64,000 nucleotides of DNA from positions 1-64,000 of the forward strand of contig JASEFS010000004.1 in assembly GCA_030018495.1 (NCBI GenBank), written 5' to 3'. Of this stretch, positions 19,385 through 28,024 are shown piece by piece. Position 1 is the stretch's first letter, and every line of letters begins with the position of its first letter. Below the pieces are notes generated by a model. That model was not told where the DNA came from and did no database searches. It was given only the letters and a program-made list of their open reading frames with translations. Source of the stretch: Deltaproteobacteria bacterium (GTDB lineage: Bacteria > Desulfobacterota > Desulfobaccia > Desulfobaccales > 0-14-0-80-60-11). The position numbers and the translations under genes are program-made.

Positions 19385-20560
19385 CTAAGATTTGCCTTTG
19401 CTCAGTTTCTCCATTTCCCCTTTAAATTTCGTGGCAAATTCAGTCTTGAAGGCTTCCAGGTCCATGGCTTCATCCACCCGGCCGGACAGATAAAGGGCCA
19501 TACCCTTATAGACTTCCACTTCCTTAAGTTGGGGGTTGCGCTTGAGGGCATCCTCGAAGCAGGGCAGGCTTTCCTCGTAGCGGCCAAGCCCCAAAAGGGC
19601 GCAACCCTTGCCCATGAGGATATAAGGCTGCTCTTCGTCACCGGCCAGAATGGCGTTGAACACCTCCAAAGCCTCTTGGTTGCGGCCTAAATCATTGAGC
19701 AGGAAGGCCTTGAATTCTAAAGCCTTAGAATCTTCGGCGTTGGCCTTGAGTTCCTTGTTCACGTAAAACAGGGCTTCTTCCAGCAAGCCTTTTTGAGCCA
19801 GTTCCGCCGCCCCTTCCATTAAGGGCGTCTGGACCCCTACAACCTTTTTGATCAAGCCGTCATAGGTTTCTTCCACCACAAAGCGGCCGATATTGGGTGC
19901 AACGCCGCCATGCCCGGCCAGCACGTGCTCAATATCCAGCTTCAAAAGAGATCTCAACGCATATAAATAATGATCCAAGCGGCCGCCGGCTCCTTTGTCA
20001 TCGACCTCAGCAATGGCCAGCGGCATGACGGTGTCTCCCGAAAAAAGAGTCTTGGTGGGCGCATGATAGAAACTGAGACCGTCGATGGTGTGGCCCGGGG
20101 TGTAGATCACCTCAAAATCAAAGCCGCTCAGGTTAATGGTTTCCCCGCCTTTGAGCTCGGTGATGCGGTAGCCCAGGTCTTTCACGATTTGTTTGAACTC
20201 CACAGGCCCGGCCGCGTGCATGAAGACTTCCACGTCCAGCTGGTCAGCATAGCCGCGGTGACCGCGGTAGAGCTCAATGGCCCCCATGACGTGGTCATGA
20301 TGACCGTGGGTAAGGGCGATCTTCTTGATATCGGTGGGCTTGATGCCCATTTCGAGAAGCTGCACGAAGGCATGGTAATCGTTGCCCGTGTCAATGAAGG
20401 AGCAGTGCTCTCCCTGAAGCAGGTACATATTGGAAGAGAAATCATAGCCCAACAGGAACAGGGTTTTCTCGAAGAGCGGATTGGAAATATTGGTCAATTC
20501 GGCCACAGACTGCCACTCTTCCGAGCCTTGATGGCTGGGGAACCACACATCGTCGGTCAT
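19385..20560 (-). CDS. Metallo-beta-lactamase-fold hydrolase fused to TPR repeats
   Basis: 391 residues. The N-terminal MBL domain (about 20-225) has the complete two-metal signature T-H-G-H-H-D-H, a downstream P-G-H-T metal His, F-S-G-D-T for the bridging Asp, and a final A-G-H-G His. The C-terminal part (about 245-365) holds three or so TPR units, for example A-L-E-V-F-N-A-I-L and G-R-Y-E-E-S-L-P-C-F-E-D-A-L. It may be a thioester or glyoxalase-II-like hydrolase assembled with partners through the TPRs. A terminator at 20644 separates it from the CoA-transferase cluster; a TATAAT box at 20606-20611 may serve as its own -10. Confidence 0.85.
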   Translation of the reverse strand: MTDDVWFPSHQGSEEWQSVAELTNISNPLFEKTLFLLGYDFSSNMYLLQGEHCSFIDTGNDYHAFVQLLEMGIKPTDIKKIALTHGHHDHVMGAIELYRGHRGYADQLDVEVFMHAAGPVEFKQIVKDLGYRITELKGGETINLSGFDFEVIYTPGHTIDGLSFYHAPTKTLFSGDTVMPLAIAEVDDKGAGGRLDHYLYALRSLLKLDIEHVLAGHGGVAPNIGRFVVEETYDGLIKKVVGVQTPLMEGAAELAQKGLLEEALFYVNKELKANAEDSKALEFKAFLLNDLGRNQEALEVFNAILAGDEEQPYILMGKGCALLGLGRYEESLPCFEDALKRNPQLKEVEVYKGMALYLSGRVDEAMDLEAFKTEFATKFKGEMEKLSKGKS

Positions 20561-20708: not shown

Positions 20709-21143
20709 TTACGGCGCGGCGTAGGGCAGGTAGTAGCTGAGCTTCATCTTCCCGTCCGGCCACCACTTCCGCTGCTTGGTCTCACCGGGATAGATGTCGA
20801 TTATCCCTTTGTCGACACGCACGATATGCGTCAGTTCCACTTCGATGAAGTGAAACTCGGTGAGTTCGTACTTGGTGATGATTTCAGCGGGAATCAACAC
20901 CGCGTAGCCGGTCTCCTTGGAGGTGGACCATTCAAAGGTTTCGTTGCCTTCAAAAGTCCTCTCCTCTTTGGGGTTGATGACCGCCTGCAGTTTCCCCTGA
21001 ATCTTGTCACCGATTTGCACGTCGTAATCTTCATAGAGCTCATCGGGGAGGTAGAACCACAAGGCTCTGAACCCGGTTTTGACATAACCCCGCACGAGCA
21101 TAGGATCGAAGCCACACACACTTACACGACATTTTTCGGGCAT
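20709..21143 (-). CDS. Unknown protein of the CoA-transferase cluster (144 aa)
   Basis: 144 residues, not recognised. The sequence is rich in beta-strand patterns. Residues about 75-100 (A-V-L-I-P-A-E-I-I-T-K-Y-E-L) resemble the swapped-hairpin AbrB type strand-turn-helix, but this is only a visual likeness. Two Cys near the N-terminus (C5 and C10) and an aromatic C-terminus (W-W-P-D-G, S-Y-Y-L-P-Y) stand out. It is the last gene before a strong terminator and lies 60 bases after the preceding small gene, so it should belong to the same transcript as the CoA-transferases. Confidence 0.6.
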   Translation of the reverse strand: MPEKCRVSVCGFDPMLVRGYVKTGFRALWFYLPDELYEDYDVQIGDKIQGKLQAVINPKEERTFEGNETFEWSTSKETGYAVLIPAEIITKYELTEFHFIEVELTHIVRVDKGIIDIYPGETKQRKWWPDGKMKLSYYLPYAAP

Positions 21144-21203: not shown

Positions 21204-21509
21204 TTAAAAAGGAGGGCCACTCTCGAGGCCGAGGTGCTCAGCCACCTCCAGGACCTGCTGGTAGCAGAAGTCCATGAACTGAGCCCCCTCCTCCCGGGTT
21301 ATATGTTCAGTTACAATCAGCCGCTGCACGTAGGGGTAGAGGTATTCCTCGATCTCGAACACAAACTCCCGGCACAGGAAGAAATAATCGCCTCCTCCTC
21401 CGGCAGGAGCTTGACGGAGATAATCCTCCTTCCAGAGCCCGATGCGATAGCGCAGGTGCTCGAGCTCCTCCACCCCGTGCTGGCGGACGACTTCAGGAGA
21501 TGGGCTCAT
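21204..21509 (-). CDS. Small helical unknown protein of the CoA-transferase cluster (101 aa)
   Basis: 101 residues, acidic and mainly helical, rich in Glu, Tyr and Phe; not recognised. It contains a short glycine run (A-G-G-G-G-D) that splits two helical parts: E-E-L-E-H-L-R-Y-R-I-G-L-W-K-E and a longer C-terminal set with R-E-F-V-F-E-I-E-E-Y-L. The start overlaps the end of the upstream gene by 17 bases, which implies translational coupling. It may be a structural partner of the neighbouring Cys-rich protein or of the CoA-transferase. Confidence 0.6.
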   Translation of the reverse strand: MSPSPEVVRQHGVEELEHLRYRIGLWKEDYLRQAPAGGGGDYFFLCREFVFEIEEYLYPYVQRLIVTEHITREEGAQFMDFCYQQVLEVAEHLGLESGPPF

Positions 21510-21726
21510 AGGCGTAGCACTTCTTGACTACATCATTCTCATGGATGCACCAATAATGCGGCCAGTGGATTTTCTTGCACCAGCCGATGATGTCGGCCGG
21601 CGGAAAACCGGAGCCTTTGAGCACCCATTTGAGGTATTTGCACTTCCAGCAGAGATGGTCGGTTTGTTTTTCTGGCGTCAACACATGGGCCAGAAACTCA
21701 GCCGGTGTCCTTTTCTTGTCACTCAT
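21493..21726 (-). CDS. Cys-rich small protein, glycyl-radical-enzyme small-subunit-like
   Basis: 77 residues with a GGAGGGGTGA ribosome site. Five Cys occur in the order C-W-K-C, G-W-C-K-K, Y-W-C-I-H and K-K-C-Y-A-Y-E-P. The spacing and the ending E-N-D-V-V-K-K-C-x-x-Y are reminiscent of the small [4Fe-4S] subunits of glycyl radical enzymes such as benzylsuccinate synthase (BssB/BssC) and 4-hydroxyphenylacetate decarboxylase (HpdC). That resemblance is by eye only. No glycyl radical enzyme large subunit lies in the window. A metal or Fe-S site is likely; the partner is unknown. Confidence 0.6.
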   Translation of the reverse strand: MSDKKRTPAEFLAHVLTPEKQTDHLCWKCKYLKWVLKGSGFPPADIIGWCKKIHWPHYWCIHENDVVKKCYAYEPIS

Positions 21727-21741
21727 GCGTCACCCCTCCGC

Positions 21742-22227
21742 TTACCAGTCTTTAACTTCGCCCTTGGCGATTTTCTCCTGATATTCCGCCCAGACCTCAG
21801 GAGAGAGCTTCTCGATGTCCCAGTAATAGCCGAAAGAGCCGGCCACTCCGGCGGAGGGCGGCTGCGGCCGCCAGCCTCTTACCGGCCTTCCCCGGACACT
21901 GAATTTCACCATGTCGGCCTTGCCCAGGTAGATATGCCGGGGCAGGCAGTGGTAAGGCCGGGTGCGGCCCTCGATGCCGGGCAGGTAATTGGAGTAGCCG
22001 TCGTTGGGCTTGTCGGCGTAAAGGGGCAGAATATCCGGCTTCTCACCGGGTTTCTCGTCGGGCCCCGAGTACATGTGCCCCTGGATCATGTGGATGTAAT
22101 ACACTGTGCCACATTCGGCGCAGGCGACTTTGCCTTCCCAGTTCCAGAAGCAGTAGGGGTCCAGATAATTCACCGTGTCGCAGGGCTTGCCGCCCACGTC
22201 TTTTTTGCACCAGATGATATCAGTCAT
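21742..22227 (-). CDS. Unknown zinc-ribbon-like protein of the CoA-transferase cluster (161 aa)
   Basis: 161 residues, not recognised. The N-terminal 45 residues hold five Cys (W-C-K-K, K-P-C-D, Y-C-F-W and A-C-A-E-C-G), consistent with a zinc ribbon or small Fe-S site. The middle is Pro/Gly-rich and the C-terminus is aromatic and acidic. A GGGGGTGA ribosome site precedes the ATG, 17 bases after the stop of the second CoA-transferase. The close packing argues for a role in the same reaction or in assembly of the transferase. Confidence 0.62.
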   Translation of the reverse strand: MTDIIWCKKDVGGKPCDTVNYLDPYCFWNWEGKVACAECGTVYYIHMIQGHMYSGPDEKPGEKPDILPLYADKPNDGYSNYLPGIEGRTRPYHCLPRHIYLGKADMVKFSVRGRPVRGWRPQPPSAGVAGSFGYYWDIEKLSPEVWAEYQEKIAKGEVKDW

Positions 22228-22244: not shown

Positions 22245-23672
22245 TTAGAGGATACCCTTGTCATAGAGTTCCTGGATTTTGCTCATGGGCACACCAAGGA
22301 GCTCGTGGTAGATTTTGACGTTGTCCGCGCCCACGGGCCGCCACTGCCAACGGTGCCGCCTCGGGGTCTTGGACATCAGGCCGCAGCTGTAGCCGCTGTG
22401 GACCAGGATATCGCCGAAGAGCGGGTCGTCATTCCAGCGGACGGTGCCCCGCTGGCGGTAGTGCTCGCACTCATAGACTTCCCGGTCGTTCATCACCGGC
22501 GCGGCCAGCAGGCCGTTTTCCTTAAAGATGCGCACCACTTCGGAGCGGCTCTTGTCCGCGGCCCAATCCTCAATGGCCTTGTAGATCTCGATCTGGGCCG
22601 GGGCCCCGACGCGATCTTTGTGGGTCTTATAGCGGCTGAAGAGGTCGGGCTTCTTGATGATGTTGCACAGTTCCTGGAAGTCGGCGTCCTGGAAAGCGCT
22701 CAGCATGACATAGCGGGTCTCGAACTTGTCCTGCGGGTTCTGGGCGTCAGGAAAGTCGGTCTTGCCGGTCATGATGATGCCGTGCACGCAGAGCTGGGTG
22801 TCCCAGTTGCCCCAGCGCTGGCGGACGATGCCGAAGCGGCCGTACAGCGGCGCGGTGTAGCCCAGGCAGCGGGTGGCCGCCTGCACCTGGGAGAACTCGA
22901 TCATGGTGCCGAGTCCGGTCTTGCGGCGATAATGCAAGGCCGCCAGGATGCACACGGTGATCTGGGTGCCGGAGTACCAGTCGATAACCCAGTTGGTGGC
23001 CTTGGTGGCGTGGCCGCCGAAGTCCTCATGCGCACCGGTGACGCTGGCGAGACCCGCGTGGGCCTGCCCCAGGATGTCATAGGAGCCGCCGAACATCTTG
23101 GGGCCGTAGCCGAAGCCGCCGCCCCAGACGTAGATGAACCGGGGGTTTATTTCCATGAGGGTGCGGTAGCCCTGCTTCCAACGATCAAAGGTGCCGTGCC
23201 GGTAGCACTCAGTCAGGCCGTCGCTCATCTTCACCAGATTGTAGAACAGCCGCTTGGCTTCGGGCACGTGGTAGTCCATGGTGATGTAATACTCGTTGAC
23301 GTTGGCGTTGGTGAACCCCAGTCCGGTGCCGGTCATGGGCCGGGTGTCGTGCAGGGGATAGAGATAGGCCTCGTTGAAGGGGGAGGTGTGGCGCATGGGG
23401 TCGCCCATACGGGGCATCTCGACCTTGATGCACTCGGCGCCCAACTCCGCCAGGTTGGCCACGGAATGGGGCGTGAAGATGTACATCGTGGTGCTCAGCC
23501 AGCGGATGCCCTTCAAGGCCTCGGGCTTCACCATCTCGTTGCCCACGTCGAAGGCCTTCTTGCAGTACTCCTCGAAGGGAGCCTTCATCTCATCCAGCTC
23601 TTCCTTGCTCTTGGGCCCGGGAAGTTCGTCGAAGTCACAAACCTTGAGTTTTTTGATGTCTTCTTCAAACAT
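22245..23672 (-). CDS. Class III CoA-transferase, long form, subunit 2
   Basis: 475 residues; CaiB/BaiF (formyl-CoA transferase) family. Seen: the N-terminal [13 protein letters not shown] block that binds CoA in this family, and N-W-V-I-D-W-Y-S-G followed by [14 protein letters not shown], where the Asp lies at the position of the catalytic aspartate that forms the mixed anhydride. Ordinary members have about 400-430 residues, so this one is longer by roughly 50. Its start codon directly abuts the stop of subunit 1, with a GAAGGGGG ribosome site. A paired arrangement is known for succinyl-CoA:benzylsuccinate CoA-transferase (BbsEF), but those subunits are shorter and the substrate here is unknown. 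Confidence 0.88.
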
Positions 23673-25169
23673 TTAGATTACCCCCTTCGCCTTGAGTTCC
23701 CGAAGCTTCATGGGACCGTAGCCCAGGTATTTCTTGTAAACTTCCCCGTTGTCGTGTCCCAGGGGCCGGCCCAAAGACTTCACCCGGGCCGGGCTGCGAT
23801 GCTGAAAAGCGCCGCAGGACTCAGAGTACATCACGGTGCCGTACTGCTCGTCCTCAATAGTGTTGACCCAGGGGCGATATTTGAAGTGCGGGAATTCGGC
23901 TACTTCGTCAATGTAAAGCACCGGACCGGCGGCGATTTCGTATTCCATCAGCTTGGTTTCCGCCTCGATGCGGTTGATGTCCCGCAGCCACTTGGTGGTC
24001 ACGGTATAGGTCTTGATCAGGGCCTGCAAGGCATTCCGGGCCGCCATTTCTTTGAGCAGCGGGTCTTCATGAATGAGGCGCCCGAACAACGGCAGCTCCC
24101 GCTCAATGCACATGCCGATGCGGTACCACAGCCGGTCGGTCTGGCCGCCGATCATCATGTAACCGTCTTTGCAGGGGTTCCACTCGTACTGGTTCAGGTT
24201 GGGGTCCCAGGCGCCGGTTCTGGCCTTAATGGAGGCGTTGAAGCCGTACCAGGTGATATCGAAGTCCAGGATGTCCATGAGGGCTTCCGCCGCGGTGGTC
24301 TCGATGAACTGGCCGCCGCCGCCGAACTGATCACGATAGTACAGGGCCGCCAGGATATTAACCGCAGCCTGCTCGCCGGCCACATAGTCATCCAGCCACA
24401 CGCCGGAGCGCATGGGGTCGCCGCCTTTGCCGCCCCGGGGGCACTGGTCCGGCGGGAAGCCGGTGTTGGACACCCAGGCGTTGGCGCAGGCGCCGAAGGG
24501 CGACAGCATCCACTGCCCGTATTTGGAGAGCTCGTCCTTCATCGGACCCCACTGGCCCCGCTGGCCGATCCAGCAGTACACCAGGTTGGGGTTAAGCTTG
24601 GAGAGGTGGCGGTAACCCAGACCCAGGGAATCCATATAGCCCGGGGGATATTCTTCCACAATGACATCCACCAGCATGGCCAGCTTCTTGTAAATCTCCC
24701 GGCCTTCAGCGGTTTCAATATTCAAGGTGATGGACTGGGCGTTCCTGAGCTCATGGAGGAAGTCCAGGCCGCAAGGGGTGCCGGTGGCCGCGTCCTTGAG
24801 CATATACTCTTCCCGTCCAAACGGGGTGAGCTGCCGGGCCGGGTCGCCGGTGGGCGGCTCGATGTTGATGAATTCCATCCCCTGCTCAGCCAGGAGGCCG
24901 GTGCAGAACTTGTGGCCCATGCGCCACAGGCCCATGCCCAGCATTTTGAAGCCCTGAAGGGCCTCGGGTTTGTCAAAGACATAATCTAATCTCAGATTGT
25001 CTTCCAGGAATTGCCCAAACTCCTCCGCCTTCCGTTTGGCATAGACGTTTTTCATCACCCACTCGGGGTCCGGAGGCGGGGTTACGGGCCAGGGACGAAC
25101 ATCTGGCCCCATCAACGGCAGGGTATCGGCCCGACTGTTGATTTCAATGTCCCTTTTCTCTTTCGCCAT
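23673..25169 (-). CDS. Class III CoA-transferase, long form, subunit 1
   Basis: 498 residues from the ATG at 25169, which has a GGGAGG ribosome site; an in-frame ATG 15 bases upstream would place that site inside the gene. CaiB/BaiF family: [12 protein letters not shown] near the N-terminus, [12 protein letters not shown], and [10 protein letters not shown] followed by I-L-A-A-L-Y-Y-R. One of the two adjacent Asp is the candidate catalytic residue. It is about 70-90 residues longer than standard family members. First gene of a cluster with subunit 2 and four small proteins, behind a 524-base leader region and a sigma-54 activator gene. Confidence 0.88.
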
Positions 25170-25693
25170 GTTTCGGCCTCCCATTCAGCAATGTTGTTCT
25201 TCAAAGGGTCGAATCCAGTTCTTGCCGTCAGAAAGTGAAGACCGATTGTGTAATTCTTTTTAAAAATGGGCCTTCACGAGCCGATGTAATAATGCTTCAT
25301 GCCCCCCAAGATAAGATGATATGCGGGGAGCGGAAGGATTTTAACTCTCTCACCTCCTTTCCAACCAAATTGTTTTTACCGTTTTAGGTTTTTCACTCCG
25401 GTCGGCCAGACGCCCCGGGGCCCCACCACCGACGCGCCTGACCCTCCCGTACTGCATTACAAAAACCCTGCCATGAAAAGTTGTGACGCACCATAGCAGG
25501 TTTGACCACTGTTTTCAAATTGAATTTTAAAGGATTTTACGAAAAGTTTTGTTGCCAAGAATGCCAGCCGATCTGACGCAAATAGTTTTTCAAACTGTCC
25601 AGGATAAAGACTAAAGTCCCCGATGCAACAAAATATTCCTTTAAAAATAAGCTAGTTGAAAAATGTCCAAAATAAGACTCCCAATTTCTAAAT
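25170..25693. other. 524-base regulatory gap upstream of the CoA-transferase cluster
   Basis: No gene is supported. The gap is AT-rich towards the activator gene. A perfect anti-Shine-Dalgarno complement (AAGGAGGTGA on the minus strand, 25350-25359) has no start codon at a usable distance. Sites with the GG-N10-GC spacing of sigma-54 promoters occur at about 25294-25309 and 25453-25472 on the minus strand, but both match the consensus poorly. It presumably contains the promoter of the cluster. Confidence 0.5.
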
Positions 25694-28024
25694 TCATTCC
25701 AAGTCCCCATGTGAAATGCCGTATCGGCGAATCTTGCTGTACAAAGTGCTGCGGCTGACCCGGAGTCGCCGGGCCGCTTCGTGTTTATTCCAGTTGGCTT
25801 CCTTGAGCACCCGCTGGATCAGTCTTTTTTCGGTTTCCGCCAGCGACGTGGGAAAGATGTCTTCGTCGGAGTCTTTGAGAAAACGGGGCAGGTGCCGGCG
25901 CCTTATGATTTCCCCCGGGGCCAGGATCACCGCGTGGCTGATGGCGTTTTCCAATTGCCGGACATTGCCCGGCCATTCATAATCCATCAGGGCCTGCATG
26001 GCATCCGGGGAAAAACGGCCGATTTTCTTTCCTTCCTTCAAGTTGTACTTGTTTAAAAAATGCTGGCAGAGAAGCGGGATATCTTCCTTGCGCTCCCTGA
26101 GGGGCGGCAACTGGATGGTAATGACGTTCAGCCGGTAGTAAAGGTCGTCACGGAAGCGGCTCGTCTGCACCTCTTTATACAGATCCTTGTTGGTGGCCGC
26201 CAAAACCCGCACGTCGGTTTCAATGGTGGCCTCGCCCCCTACCCGCTCGAAGCAGTGGTCCTGGAGGAAGCGCAGCAGCAACACCTGGGTGGCCGGCGGT
26301 ATATCGCCGATTTCGTCCAGAAACAGGGTGCCGCTCTGGGCCAGTTCAAAGCGACCTTTTTTACGGCGGATGGCGCCGGTGAACGCCCCCTTCTCATGGC
26401 CGAAGAGCTCGCTTTCAAGCAGGGTGGGAGAATAGGCCGAGCAGTTGGCCACCACAAAGGGACCTCTATTGCGCTTGCTCTGGCGGTGGATGGTCCGGGC
26501 CACCAGTTCCTTGCCGGTGCCGTTTTCGCCGGTGATGAGCACCGTGGCATCAGTGCCCGACACCAGATCAATAAGCTGATAGACCTCCTGCATGGGTTTG
26601 CTTTGGCCGATAATCTCACCGTAGGAGAACTTTTCCGGCAAGTCAGCCCCGCCGAACCCTTTCTCCCCTTCCTGCCGGACCAGATAACGCATATAGCAGC
26701 CCACCTGGGCGAACAGGGCATGAAAGAAATGCAGGTCCTCCCGGGAGTAGCTCTGGTGACTGTTGGAGCCCAGGACAAAAAAGCCGATGCAGCTCTGTTT
26801 GGCAAATATAGGCAGTCCGAACCAACTGGGATAAATGGCTGAGATGACTTTTAAGAAAGGCGGCAGCGCGGCGCGGTCCGCAAAGGTGATGACGTTCTGC
26901 TCGGAGGTTGTTTTGATGTACTTGATGAAATCGGGAACCAAGCCGAGCTGCTCCCAGCGGCGGACCACCCGCCGCATCGCCTCGGTGAGCCGGGAAGGGC
27001 ATTCATCCAGAGGCAGGAGGCCTTTGTCTCCGTCCAGGAGCAAGAAGACGGCTTCCGAATCCGCGAAGGTCTCCGTAATCTTGCCGTGCAAAAAGTTGAC
27101 CAGCTCCGGAATGGAGCGCTTGTCGGTCCGTTCCCGGGAAACTTCAAAGAGCTTCTCCAACTGAAGCTGAGTTTTCTGCAACTCCCTGGACCGAAAGGCC
27201 AAGGCTTCCTCCATTTTGCGCCGGTCCGTCACATCCCGTTCCAGGCACACCACCAGATCGACCCTGCCGTGGGCATCGAAGTGGGGATACGTGGCGATCT
27301 GAAAGATGCGCTCCTGGCCCTGGGAATTGGCAAAGCTCTTATCGCTCAGCACGGATCGCTTCAGACGGGCTGTTTCCTGCACCGGGCAGTAAATGCCCTC
27401 CTCCTGGCAGGGGCCTTCCCGGCGATGCATAACCTCAAAGCAGGCCTTTCCCATAACTTCTTCGGGCTTCCAGCCGATCCGGGACAAAAACGAGGCGTTC
27501 GCCAACACCACCCGGCAATTGCGGGGATCGATGACAATAAGGTTATCCGTGATGCTGTTGATGATGGTGTCCCGGAAAGCGATGGCCGACTGCAGCTTGC
27601 CTTCCGCCTCTTTGAGATGAGAAATATCCGTGAATATGGCCAGAGAACCTAAATAAACGCCTTTCTCCATTATGGGTGTGGCGGAAATCAAACCGGAGAG
27701 AGGGCTGCCGTCTTTTTTTTGTAATTTCAGCTCATAGATGTCGGCCTGACCCCGCCGCCGGCGCTCCAACTGCAATTTGACCAGCTTGCCGGCATCTTCG
27801 TCCATAAAGGTGAAAATTGACCGGCCCAATATGTTCTCGGGGCGATAATTCAGCATCTGGGAAAAGCACTGGTTCGCAAAGGTAATCCGGCCCTTGGCGT
27901 CCAAAATGAACATGCCTTCCCGGGCCAGTTCCACCATGCTGCGATAGGGATCGGAGCCGGTTAACGGAAAGTCCAGTCTGTCGGAAAGGGATATCAGTGC
28001 CTTAGGACTTTTTTGGTAACCCAT
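25694..28024 (-). CDS. Sigma-54-dependent transcriptional activator with two PAS domains
   Basis: 776 residues. PAS domains at about 22-140 and 145-265, then a coiled/GAF-like region (about 285-445), an AAA+ domain (about 470-700) and a C-terminal Fis-type helix-turn-helix (N-K-H-E-A-A-R-R-L-R-V-S-R-S-T-L-Y). The ATPase is complete: Walker A G-E-N-G-T-G-K-E, the sigma-54-contacting G-A-F-T-G-A loop, and L-F-L-D-E-I-G-D for Walker B. There is no receiver domain, so it senses a ligand or redox state through its PAS/GAF parts. It is directly upstream of, and on the same strand as, the CoA-transferase cluster, its likely target. Confidence 0.94.
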   Translation of the reverse strand: MGYQKSPKALISLSDRLDFPLTGSDPYRSMVELAREGMFILDAKGRITFANQCFSQMLNYRPENILGRSIFTFMDEDAGKLVKLQLERRRRGQADIYELKLQKKDGSPLSGLISATPIMEKGVYLGSLAIFTDISHLKEAEGKLQSAIAFRDTIINSITDNLIVIDPRNCRVVLANASFLSRIGWKPEEVMGKACFEVMHRREGPCQEEGIYCPVQETARLKRSVLSDKSFANSQGQERIFQIATYPHFDAHGRVDLVVCLERDVTDRRKMEEALAFRSRELQKTQLQLEKLFEVSRERTDKRSIPELVNFLHGKITETFADSEAVFLLLDGDKGLLPLDECPSRLTEAMRRVVRRWEQLGLVPDFIKYIKTTSEQNVITFADRAALPPFLKVISAIYPSWFGLPIFAKQSCIGFFVLGSNSHQSYSREDLHFFHALFAQVGCYMRYLVRQEGEKGFGGADLPEKFSYGEIIGQSKPMQEVYQLIDLVSGTDATVLITGENGTGKELVARTIHRQSKRNRGPFVVANCSAYSPTLLESELFGHEKGAFTGAIRRKKGRFELAQSGTLFLDEIGDIPPATQVLLLRFLQDHCFERVGGEATIETDVRVLAATNKDLYKEVQTSRFRDDLYYRLNVITIQLPPLRERKEDIPLLCQHFLNKYNLKEGKKIGRFSPDAMQALMDYEWPGNVRQLENAISHAVILAPGEIIRRRHLPRFLKDSDEDIFPTSLAETEKRLIQRVLKEANWNKHEAARRLRVSRSTLYSKIRRYGISHGDLE

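Follow-up and report, generated by a model that had tools for sequence, protein, structure and literature searches.

The window, a stretch of 64,000 nucleotides from a Deltaproteobacteria bacterium (contig JASEFS010000004.1), carries a gene for a small cysteine protein, p77, which travels with a pair of family III CoA-transferase genes, ctA and ctB. We give about even odds (a probability of roughly 0.5) to the reading that p77 serves a heteromeric CoA-transferase complex as an accessory subunit that binds a metal, most likely as one [4Fe-4S] cluster. The evidence comes from the conservation of p77 and its gene order, from two divergent versions of the same module, and from searches for the glycyl-radical enzymes whose small subunits p77 recalls. 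Modules of the window's own kind are referred to as type A.

The conserved gene run and its CoA-transferase pair

The genes are transcribed from the minus strand in the order ctA, ctB, p161, p77, p101, p144 and MBL-TPR, a conserved run of seven in which p77 is the fourth. These genes, and a regulator gene upstream of ctA, are as follows:

Sigma-54-dependent PAS regulator, 25694..28024, minus strand: upstream of ctA
ctA, 23673..25184, minus strand: family III CoA-transferase of 503 aa (PF02515, E 1.9e-59)
ctB, 22245..23672, minus strand: family III CoA-transferase of 475 aa (PF02515, E 5.7e-66)
p161, 21742..22227, minus strand: Cys-ribbon-like protein
p77, 21493..21726, minus strand: 77-aa open reading frame with an ATG start, a four-Cys protein (C26, C29, C50 and C70)
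p101, 21204..21509, minus strand: small protein whose start and the end of p77 share 17 bases
p144, 20709..21143, minus strand: conserved protein
MBL-fold hydrolase with TPR repeats, 19385..20560, minus strand (PF00753, E 1.1e-19)

Relatives were found in 17 of the 22 genomes of the window's own family (its own included) and at 44 loci from the named collection, including Desulfobacca, Desulfacinum, Desulfoferrobacter, Syntrophobacteraceae, Desulfobacterales, several 'Aquificota' and one Thermoplasmata bin. Gene order was counted only at loci with room on the contig; the 59 loci come from overlapping locus sets and do not equal 59 independent genomes (L024 was dropped because it lies on the same contig as L007, L061 was omitted because its p77 is cut by the contig end, and the window was entered once, as L001). 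On this basis, p161 adjoined p77 in 58 of 59 loci, and ctB and ctA were present upstream in 56 of 58 and 32 of 34, respectively. Downstream of p77, p101 was present in 55 of 57 loci (a 56th, at L027:8212-8490, was picked up by profile), p144 in 55 of 56 and the MBL gene in all 34. The exceptions to this order were L039 and L027, the latter from an archaeal bin.

Several individual loci should be mentioned in their own right. At L039:4861-5187, p77 has an N-terminal extension and no adjoining ctB or p161, and it lies near transposase-like open reading frames (read from translations), so that the operon looks broken or rearranged. At L027:7530-10067, in a bin labelled Thermoplasmata archaeon, the run p161-p77-p101-p144-MBL occurs without adjoining CoA-transferase genes, and a different small contig from that bin has a partial ctB (65% identity, residues 259-474) at its end (L189:2912-3565); this occurrence may represent transfer to an archaeon or bin contamination. 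In one genome, G146, the type A p161-p77 pair occurs twice (G146:C26 and G146:C243). At 10 loci, an AMP-binding ligase gene of one cluster lies close to the type A operon (for example, L040:1642-3288, assigned by Pfam, and L026:11715-13607); in all six of those listed it is on the opposite strand, and it recalls the ligase of type B described below.

No family matched p101 or p161 in Pfam or NCBIfam at E<=1, and the sole match of p144 in these databases was a sub-threshold one to DinB (E 0.065). In p161, the second cysteine pair (C36-x2-C39) was present in 25 of 25 rows; the first pair is C-x8-C in the window, and of the 25 rows 18 have C-x8 to C-x9 or a similar spacing, six have C-x2-C and the type B row has C-x-C. 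Its AlphaFold model reached a mean pLDDT of 81, and neither its best Foldseek match (E 1.9) nor its best VIA-align match (Z 2.4) among PDB folds was meaningful; a likeness to the Tim15 co-chaperone (Foldseek rank 2, E 2.1) was not taken as evidence. The sigma-54 PAS regulator is a possible local regulator, its gene being present in part of the loci only; a sigma-54 promoter pattern upstream of ctA was absent from the window and present in 1 of 32 relatives, compared with an average of 0.26 in random stretches.

The p77 gene itself is genuine, strongly conserved and under purifying selection. Three pairwise comparisons gave pN of 0.08-0.16 vs pS of 0.63-0.75, and matches to p77 were found in 34 of the 394 genomes sampled from the phylum (33 of type A and one of the distant type B); because pN is far below pS and the matches extend across the phylum sample, the pattern is beyond chance. 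The sequence-only reading had drawn attention to a cysteine order of C-x2-C, C, C, C-Y and to the end of the protein. That order is present in the window (C26, C29, C50, C60 and C70-Y, ending in ENDVVKKCYAYEPIS), but the conserved motif is a four-Cys and not a five-Cys one: C26, C29, C50 and C70 each occurred in 49 of 49 rows of the type A alignment (the window and 48 relatives), whereas C60 occurred in 42 of 49, with Ser or Val in the remainder. H24, H54 and W59 were likewise invariant (49/49). The spacing is C-x2-C-x20-C-x19-C, usually with Y/F-A after C70, and a V-[VI]-K-K-C-[YF]-A-[FY]-like end is mostly conserved within type A, whereas the E-N-D before it is not.

Both ctA and ctB are members of family III, with PF02515 scores of 202.1 and 223.5 bits, respectively, against a cut-off of 23.3, and they were the only matches to this family in the window's genome at E<=1e-4. 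The position aligned with Asp169 of Escherichia coli Frc, which we take to be the catalytic residue, is Asp in every one of the 50 type A rows of CtB, as well as in its aligned rows from types B and C. In CtA, it is Asp in 30 and Ser in 5 of 35 type A rows (35 of the 44 alignment rows, nine ctB rows being left out), while the CtA of the type B locus L160 has Glu. Since this Asp is invariant in CtB and variable in CtA, the alignments suggest that CtB is the catalytic subunit and CtA its partner. In a tree of 22 rows that included E. coli Frc and YfdE, CtA and CtB each formed a clade of their own (99/99 and 100/100) in which all three types were represented, and the two E. coli rows were long branches. 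In the PDB search of ctB at E<=1e-20, the BbsEF chain 9fn0_B ranked fourth of four (E 6.4e-21) behind a hydroxymethylglutarate CoA-transferase (5.5e-23), so no special kinship of ctB with BbsEF was seen in this search; the chain was absent from the three PDB matches of ctA at the same threshold.

It is conceivable that CtA and CtB use the transferase fold as a scaffold for a different reaction of CoA thioesters (isomerase, lyase or dehydratase-like), with the metal centers taking part in the chemistry. Such chemistry would have more need of a metal center, family III includes isomerases, and ctB weakly matched the NCBIfam model of 2-methylfumaryl-CoA isomerase (E 0.0049), while neither protein reached an NCBIfam equivalog cut-off. 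Nevertheless, the aspartate of CoA transfer is kept throughout the 50 type A rows of CtB, and we regard this alternative as unlikely.

Divergent modules and their carriers

A search with p161 identified 41 of the 394 genomes of the phylum sample. In addition to type A, it revealed two divergent groups, distinguished by their scores and frame lengths: type B (nine genomes) and type C (eight genomes). Twelve of these 17 places were read (eight of type B and four of type C). In all 12, a four-Cys small protein follows the p161-like gene, and in nine of them both ctA and ctB lie upstream; the contigs of the other three are cut, inside ctB (L163 and L164) or before p161 (L165). All 11 small proteins that were aligned fit C-x2-C-x14-20-C-x15-28-C. 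Thus, the core ctA-ctB-p161-four-Cys recurs in three divergent module types, and because types B and C keep it, the pairing of p77 with the CoA-transferases looks old and specific.

The small proteins of type A and types B/C also look related beyond their cysteines. In a profile comparison with hhalign, the probability was 85.4 and the score 32.6; none of 200 Cys-fixed shuffles was as good (best 32.1), and a sequence-wise control gave 0 to 2 of 500. The type A p77 profile at E<=0.001 retrieved a single small protein of type B (G399, E 7.8e-4), and none of type C. The link from type A to types B/C is based on gene neighborhood and profile comparison.

Type B modules continue with an AMP-forming ligase and a 4HBT thioesterase (L094 by Pfam, six more loci by similarity). 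At L155:9199-9840, one open frame spans both the four-Cys protein of type B and its successor, p125, through either a natural fusion or the loss of a stop codon. Downstream of type C modules lie two genes whose products, as read from translations, resemble an aldolase and a zinc alcohol dehydrogenase (L157:8917-10759, L158:9313-11239 and L159:8874-10739).

With regard to the carriers, a strong dsrA match (E<=1e-160) was found in 30 of the 33 type A genomes, which are therefore probably anaerobes. None of the nine type B carriers had a strong match (G316 had a weak one), and 193 of the 394 genomes were above the cut-off overall. It should be noted that the dsrA pattern tracks phylogenetic lineage and does not establish a connection with sulfate reduction.

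Likeness to glycyl-radical-enzyme subunits and to other metal proteins

The sequence-only reading had likened p77 to the BssB, BssC or HpdC-type small subunits of glycyl-radical enzymes, without the enzyme, and had offered two explanations: a missing radical partner elsewhere, or reuse of the fold as a CoA-transferase subunit. The absence of the enzyme was borne out, as the Gly_radical domain (PF01228) had no match in the window's genome, which is 99.97% complete. At E<=0.001, the domain was also absent from 36 of the 41 genomes with a module and present in five. Furthermore, BssC (PF08201) occurred in 15 of 297 genomes searched, none of them among the 41 carriers. The idea of a missing partner was discarded on these results. 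We therefore consider it very improbable that p77 is the accessory subunit of a radical enzyme encoded elsewhere in the genome, even though its cysteine architecture and the ends of the protein resemble BssC and a weak signal remains when cysteines are held fixed. A toluene-type setting was also rejected: the dearomatizing hydrolase model TIGR03200 was above its cut-off in 1 of 41 carriers, and 14 of 41 matched at E<=1e-20, most of them far below the cut-off. In the window's own genome the only match was of 77.6 bits against a cut-off of 464.

The resemblance of p77 to BssC, BssB and HpdC is one of architecture, as far as the profiles tell. The CX2CXnCXnC motif of BssC/TutF is present in 49 of 49 type A and 11 of 11 aligned B/C rows; the searches against the three families all remained below curated cut-offs (PF08201, PF18512 and PF18524), with marginal results in Cys-fixed controls. 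PF08201 gave no match for p77 at E<=1, nor for any of 22 members at E<=10. PF18512 (BssB) was absent from the matches of the 22 members, and PF18524 (HPIP_like) was found in 4 of 22 at E<=10 with an insignificant best E of 0.024 (7.9 bits for the first member against a cut-off of 28.1). Across the 394 genomes, PF18524 never exceeded its cut-off, and no sub-threshold place coincided with the window's p77 gene. PknG_rubred was matched weakly by 5 of 22 members (best E 0.067, insignificant). No other family claimed p77: there was no Pfam or NCBIfam match at E<=1, and the PDB sequence search at E<=10 returned nothing for p77 or for the type A profile. With the joint A/B/C alignment, the best PDB profile match (E 0.29, common to ribosomal eS27 and PhlC) was unconvincing, as was a PhlC likeness of the L094 protein alone (E 0.11). 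The AlphaFold model of p77 had a pLDDT of 53.5, too poor to show a fold.

We also compared the profiles directly, using for BssC the PF08201 members from 20 loci and the solved BssC. The hhalign probabilities against BssC were 1.1, 6.5 and 5.0 for the A, B/C and joint profiles; of 200 Cys-fixed column shuffles, 21, 13 and 6 were as good by default, and 29, 20 and 4 with -mact 0. Against single sequences, the best value of 15 comparisons was a probability of 36.6 between the C-terminal half of HpdC and the B/C profile. When the three profiles were searched with hmmsearch, the Cys-fixed shuffles as good out of 1000 numbered 14-231 for BssC, 25-42 for the C-terminal half of HpdC, 63-133 for part of MasC, 251-760 for BssB (251, 760 and 268 for the three profiles) and 733-896 for one rubredoxin. 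Given that 15 comparisons were made, the BssC and HpdC signals may be considered weak hints, and no such hint appeared for BssB or rubredoxin. Membership in such a family is nonetheless possible, as a HiPIP fold has been described for MASS-beta without sequence similarity to BSS subunits (in the part of PMC12358834 consulted).

Four cysteines can equally bind zinc, and p77 and p161 might both be structural zinc subunits of the same CoA-transferase complex, without a redox or oxygen-sensitive center. The cysteine pattern of p161, C-x2-C or C-x8-C followed by C-x2-C, is ribbon-like, and the type A profile scored the p161 ribbon, our negative control, above the BssC family (15.8 vs 13.7 in hhalign). 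On the other hand, the C-x2-C-x20-C-x19-C spacing of p77 and the residues that usually follow C70 resemble those of HiPIP-like subunits more closely than those of a two-knuckle ribbon, the rubredoxin was equaled or beaten by most of its own Cys-fixed shuffles, and the type A carriers are, by their dsrA, probably anaerobes. On balance, zinc appears to us the less likely metal, although it is the strongest of the alternatives. It is considerably less probable that p77 is a free HiPIP- or ferredoxin-like electron carrier for some oxidoreductase and is only co-regulated with the transferases. Four cysteines in a small protein, and the archaeal bin in which no transferase gene adjoins, would suit such a carrier, but p77 follows p161 and ctB in nearly all loci, and the 22 largest neighbor clusters included one recognized oxidoreductase (iron alcohol dehydrogenase-like, by reading), at 4 loci.

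Proposed role and comparison with known systems

Reuse of the small subunit by a CoA-transferase, as the sequence-only reading had suggested, was thus upheld with respect to the gene partnership and the core kept in three module types, whereas the likeness of fold stayed below profile cut-offs. The Fe-S part of the preferred reading is supported by the spacing of p77, which is of the CX2CXnCXnC kind as in BSS-gamma, where these cysteines hold a [4Fe-4S] cluster (PMC12358834, in the part consulted). The complex is supported by the conserved gene order, the core in types B and C, the Asp in CtB and the lack of Gly_radical in 36 of the 41 carriers; the archaeal bin, with p161-p77 on one contig and a partial ctB on another, was also counted for it. 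Counted against it were the lack of sequence-level membership in an Fe-S family, the equal suitability of four cysteines for zinc, the fact that gene neighborhood is no proof of a physical complex, and again the archaeal bin, whose p161-p77 has no adjoining CoA-transferases. The narrow reach of the type A p77 profile, the poor p77 model and the absence of a known metal requirement in family III also weigh on this side.

In the mechanism that we infer, a single [4Fe-4S] cluster would sit on C26, C29, C50 and C70 of p77. CtB would do the chemistry, a ping-pong CoA transfer via its conserved aspartate, with CtA as a paired subunit that is partly or wholly non-catalytic. As small metal-site subunits, p161 and p77 could stabilize the complex or restrict its activity to reducing conditions. 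This help is modeled on BSS-gamma (solubility) and BSS-beta (thiyl radical formation) in benzylsuccinate synthase, whose small subunits affect solubility and radical formation (PMC12590467, in the part consulted). The MBL hydrolase, together with the AMP-forming ligase and 4HBT thioesterase of type B, would serve the same pathway by forming or cleaving CoA thioesters, and the substrate would be some carboxylic acid.

Should p77 prove to be an Fe-S subunit of a CoA-transferase, helpers of the HiPIP-like kind would not be confined to glycyl-radical enzymes, and the reaction of family III CoA-transferases, which are not known to need a metal, would have a metal-equipped version in anaerobes. In practical terms, p77 marks a tightly conserved gene set, and a BssB/BssC-like cysteine pattern should not by itself be taken to indicate hydrocarbon activation. 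More tentatively, and with clearly less confidence than in the accessory role of p77, it is possible that the module represents an enzyme class of its own acting on CoA thioesters. It would be a heterodimer of the CoA-transferase fold with a HiPIP-like [4Fe-4S] subunit and a rubredoxin- or ribbon-like subunit, helpers of both kinds being otherwise known from alkylsuccinate synthase, with no radical enzyme and with three long-separated versions in sulfate reducers, in same-phylum relatives that lack dsrA and in one archaeal bin or more.

Among known systems, BSS-gamma (BssC/TutF, PF08201) and MASS-gamma (MasC) are like p77 in their small size (~60 aa), CX2CXnCXnC motif, similar spacing and accessory role (PMC12358834 and PMC12590467, in the parts consulted). 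Most rows also share a Phe at the third position beyond the last Cys. They differ in having a glycyl-radical enzyme as partner instead of CoA-transferases, in lacking the ~20 extra N-terminal residues of p77 and in giving no profile match. The gamma subunit of HPAD (HpdC, PF18524/PF18671) and BSS-beta (BssB, PF18512) are small [4Fe-4S] HiPIP-like subunits, as proposed for p77, but HPIP_like stayed below threshold and BssB gave no signal. MASS-delta (MasE), a rubredoxin-like small Cys protein beside a HiPIP-like one, may parallel p161 beside p77 (PMC12358834, in the part consulted), although the p161 model had no significant PDB match.

BbsEF, Frc and YfdE share family III and the conserved Asp with ctA/ctB, and BbsEF is a gene pair too, although the material consulted on it mentions no small metal subunits. 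The 'Magic' cluster of the benzene-degrading Desulfobacterota ORM2 (PMC13101534) has a type III CoA-transferase pair and an AMP-forming ligase in strict anaerobes, as here, but a flavoprotein/Fe-S trimer stands at its center; the BzS1 cluster (PMC13416013) also recalls the paired CoA-transferases and AMP ligase. In the parts of these two sources consulted, no four-Cys small protein is described for either cluster. Judged by titles, abstract openings and passages, none of the papers listed in literature searches describes the ctA-ctB-p161-p77 gene set. Compared with these systems, what is new here is a family III CoA-transferase pair with small Cys proteins of its own, which would probably bind a metal and join the pair in a complex.
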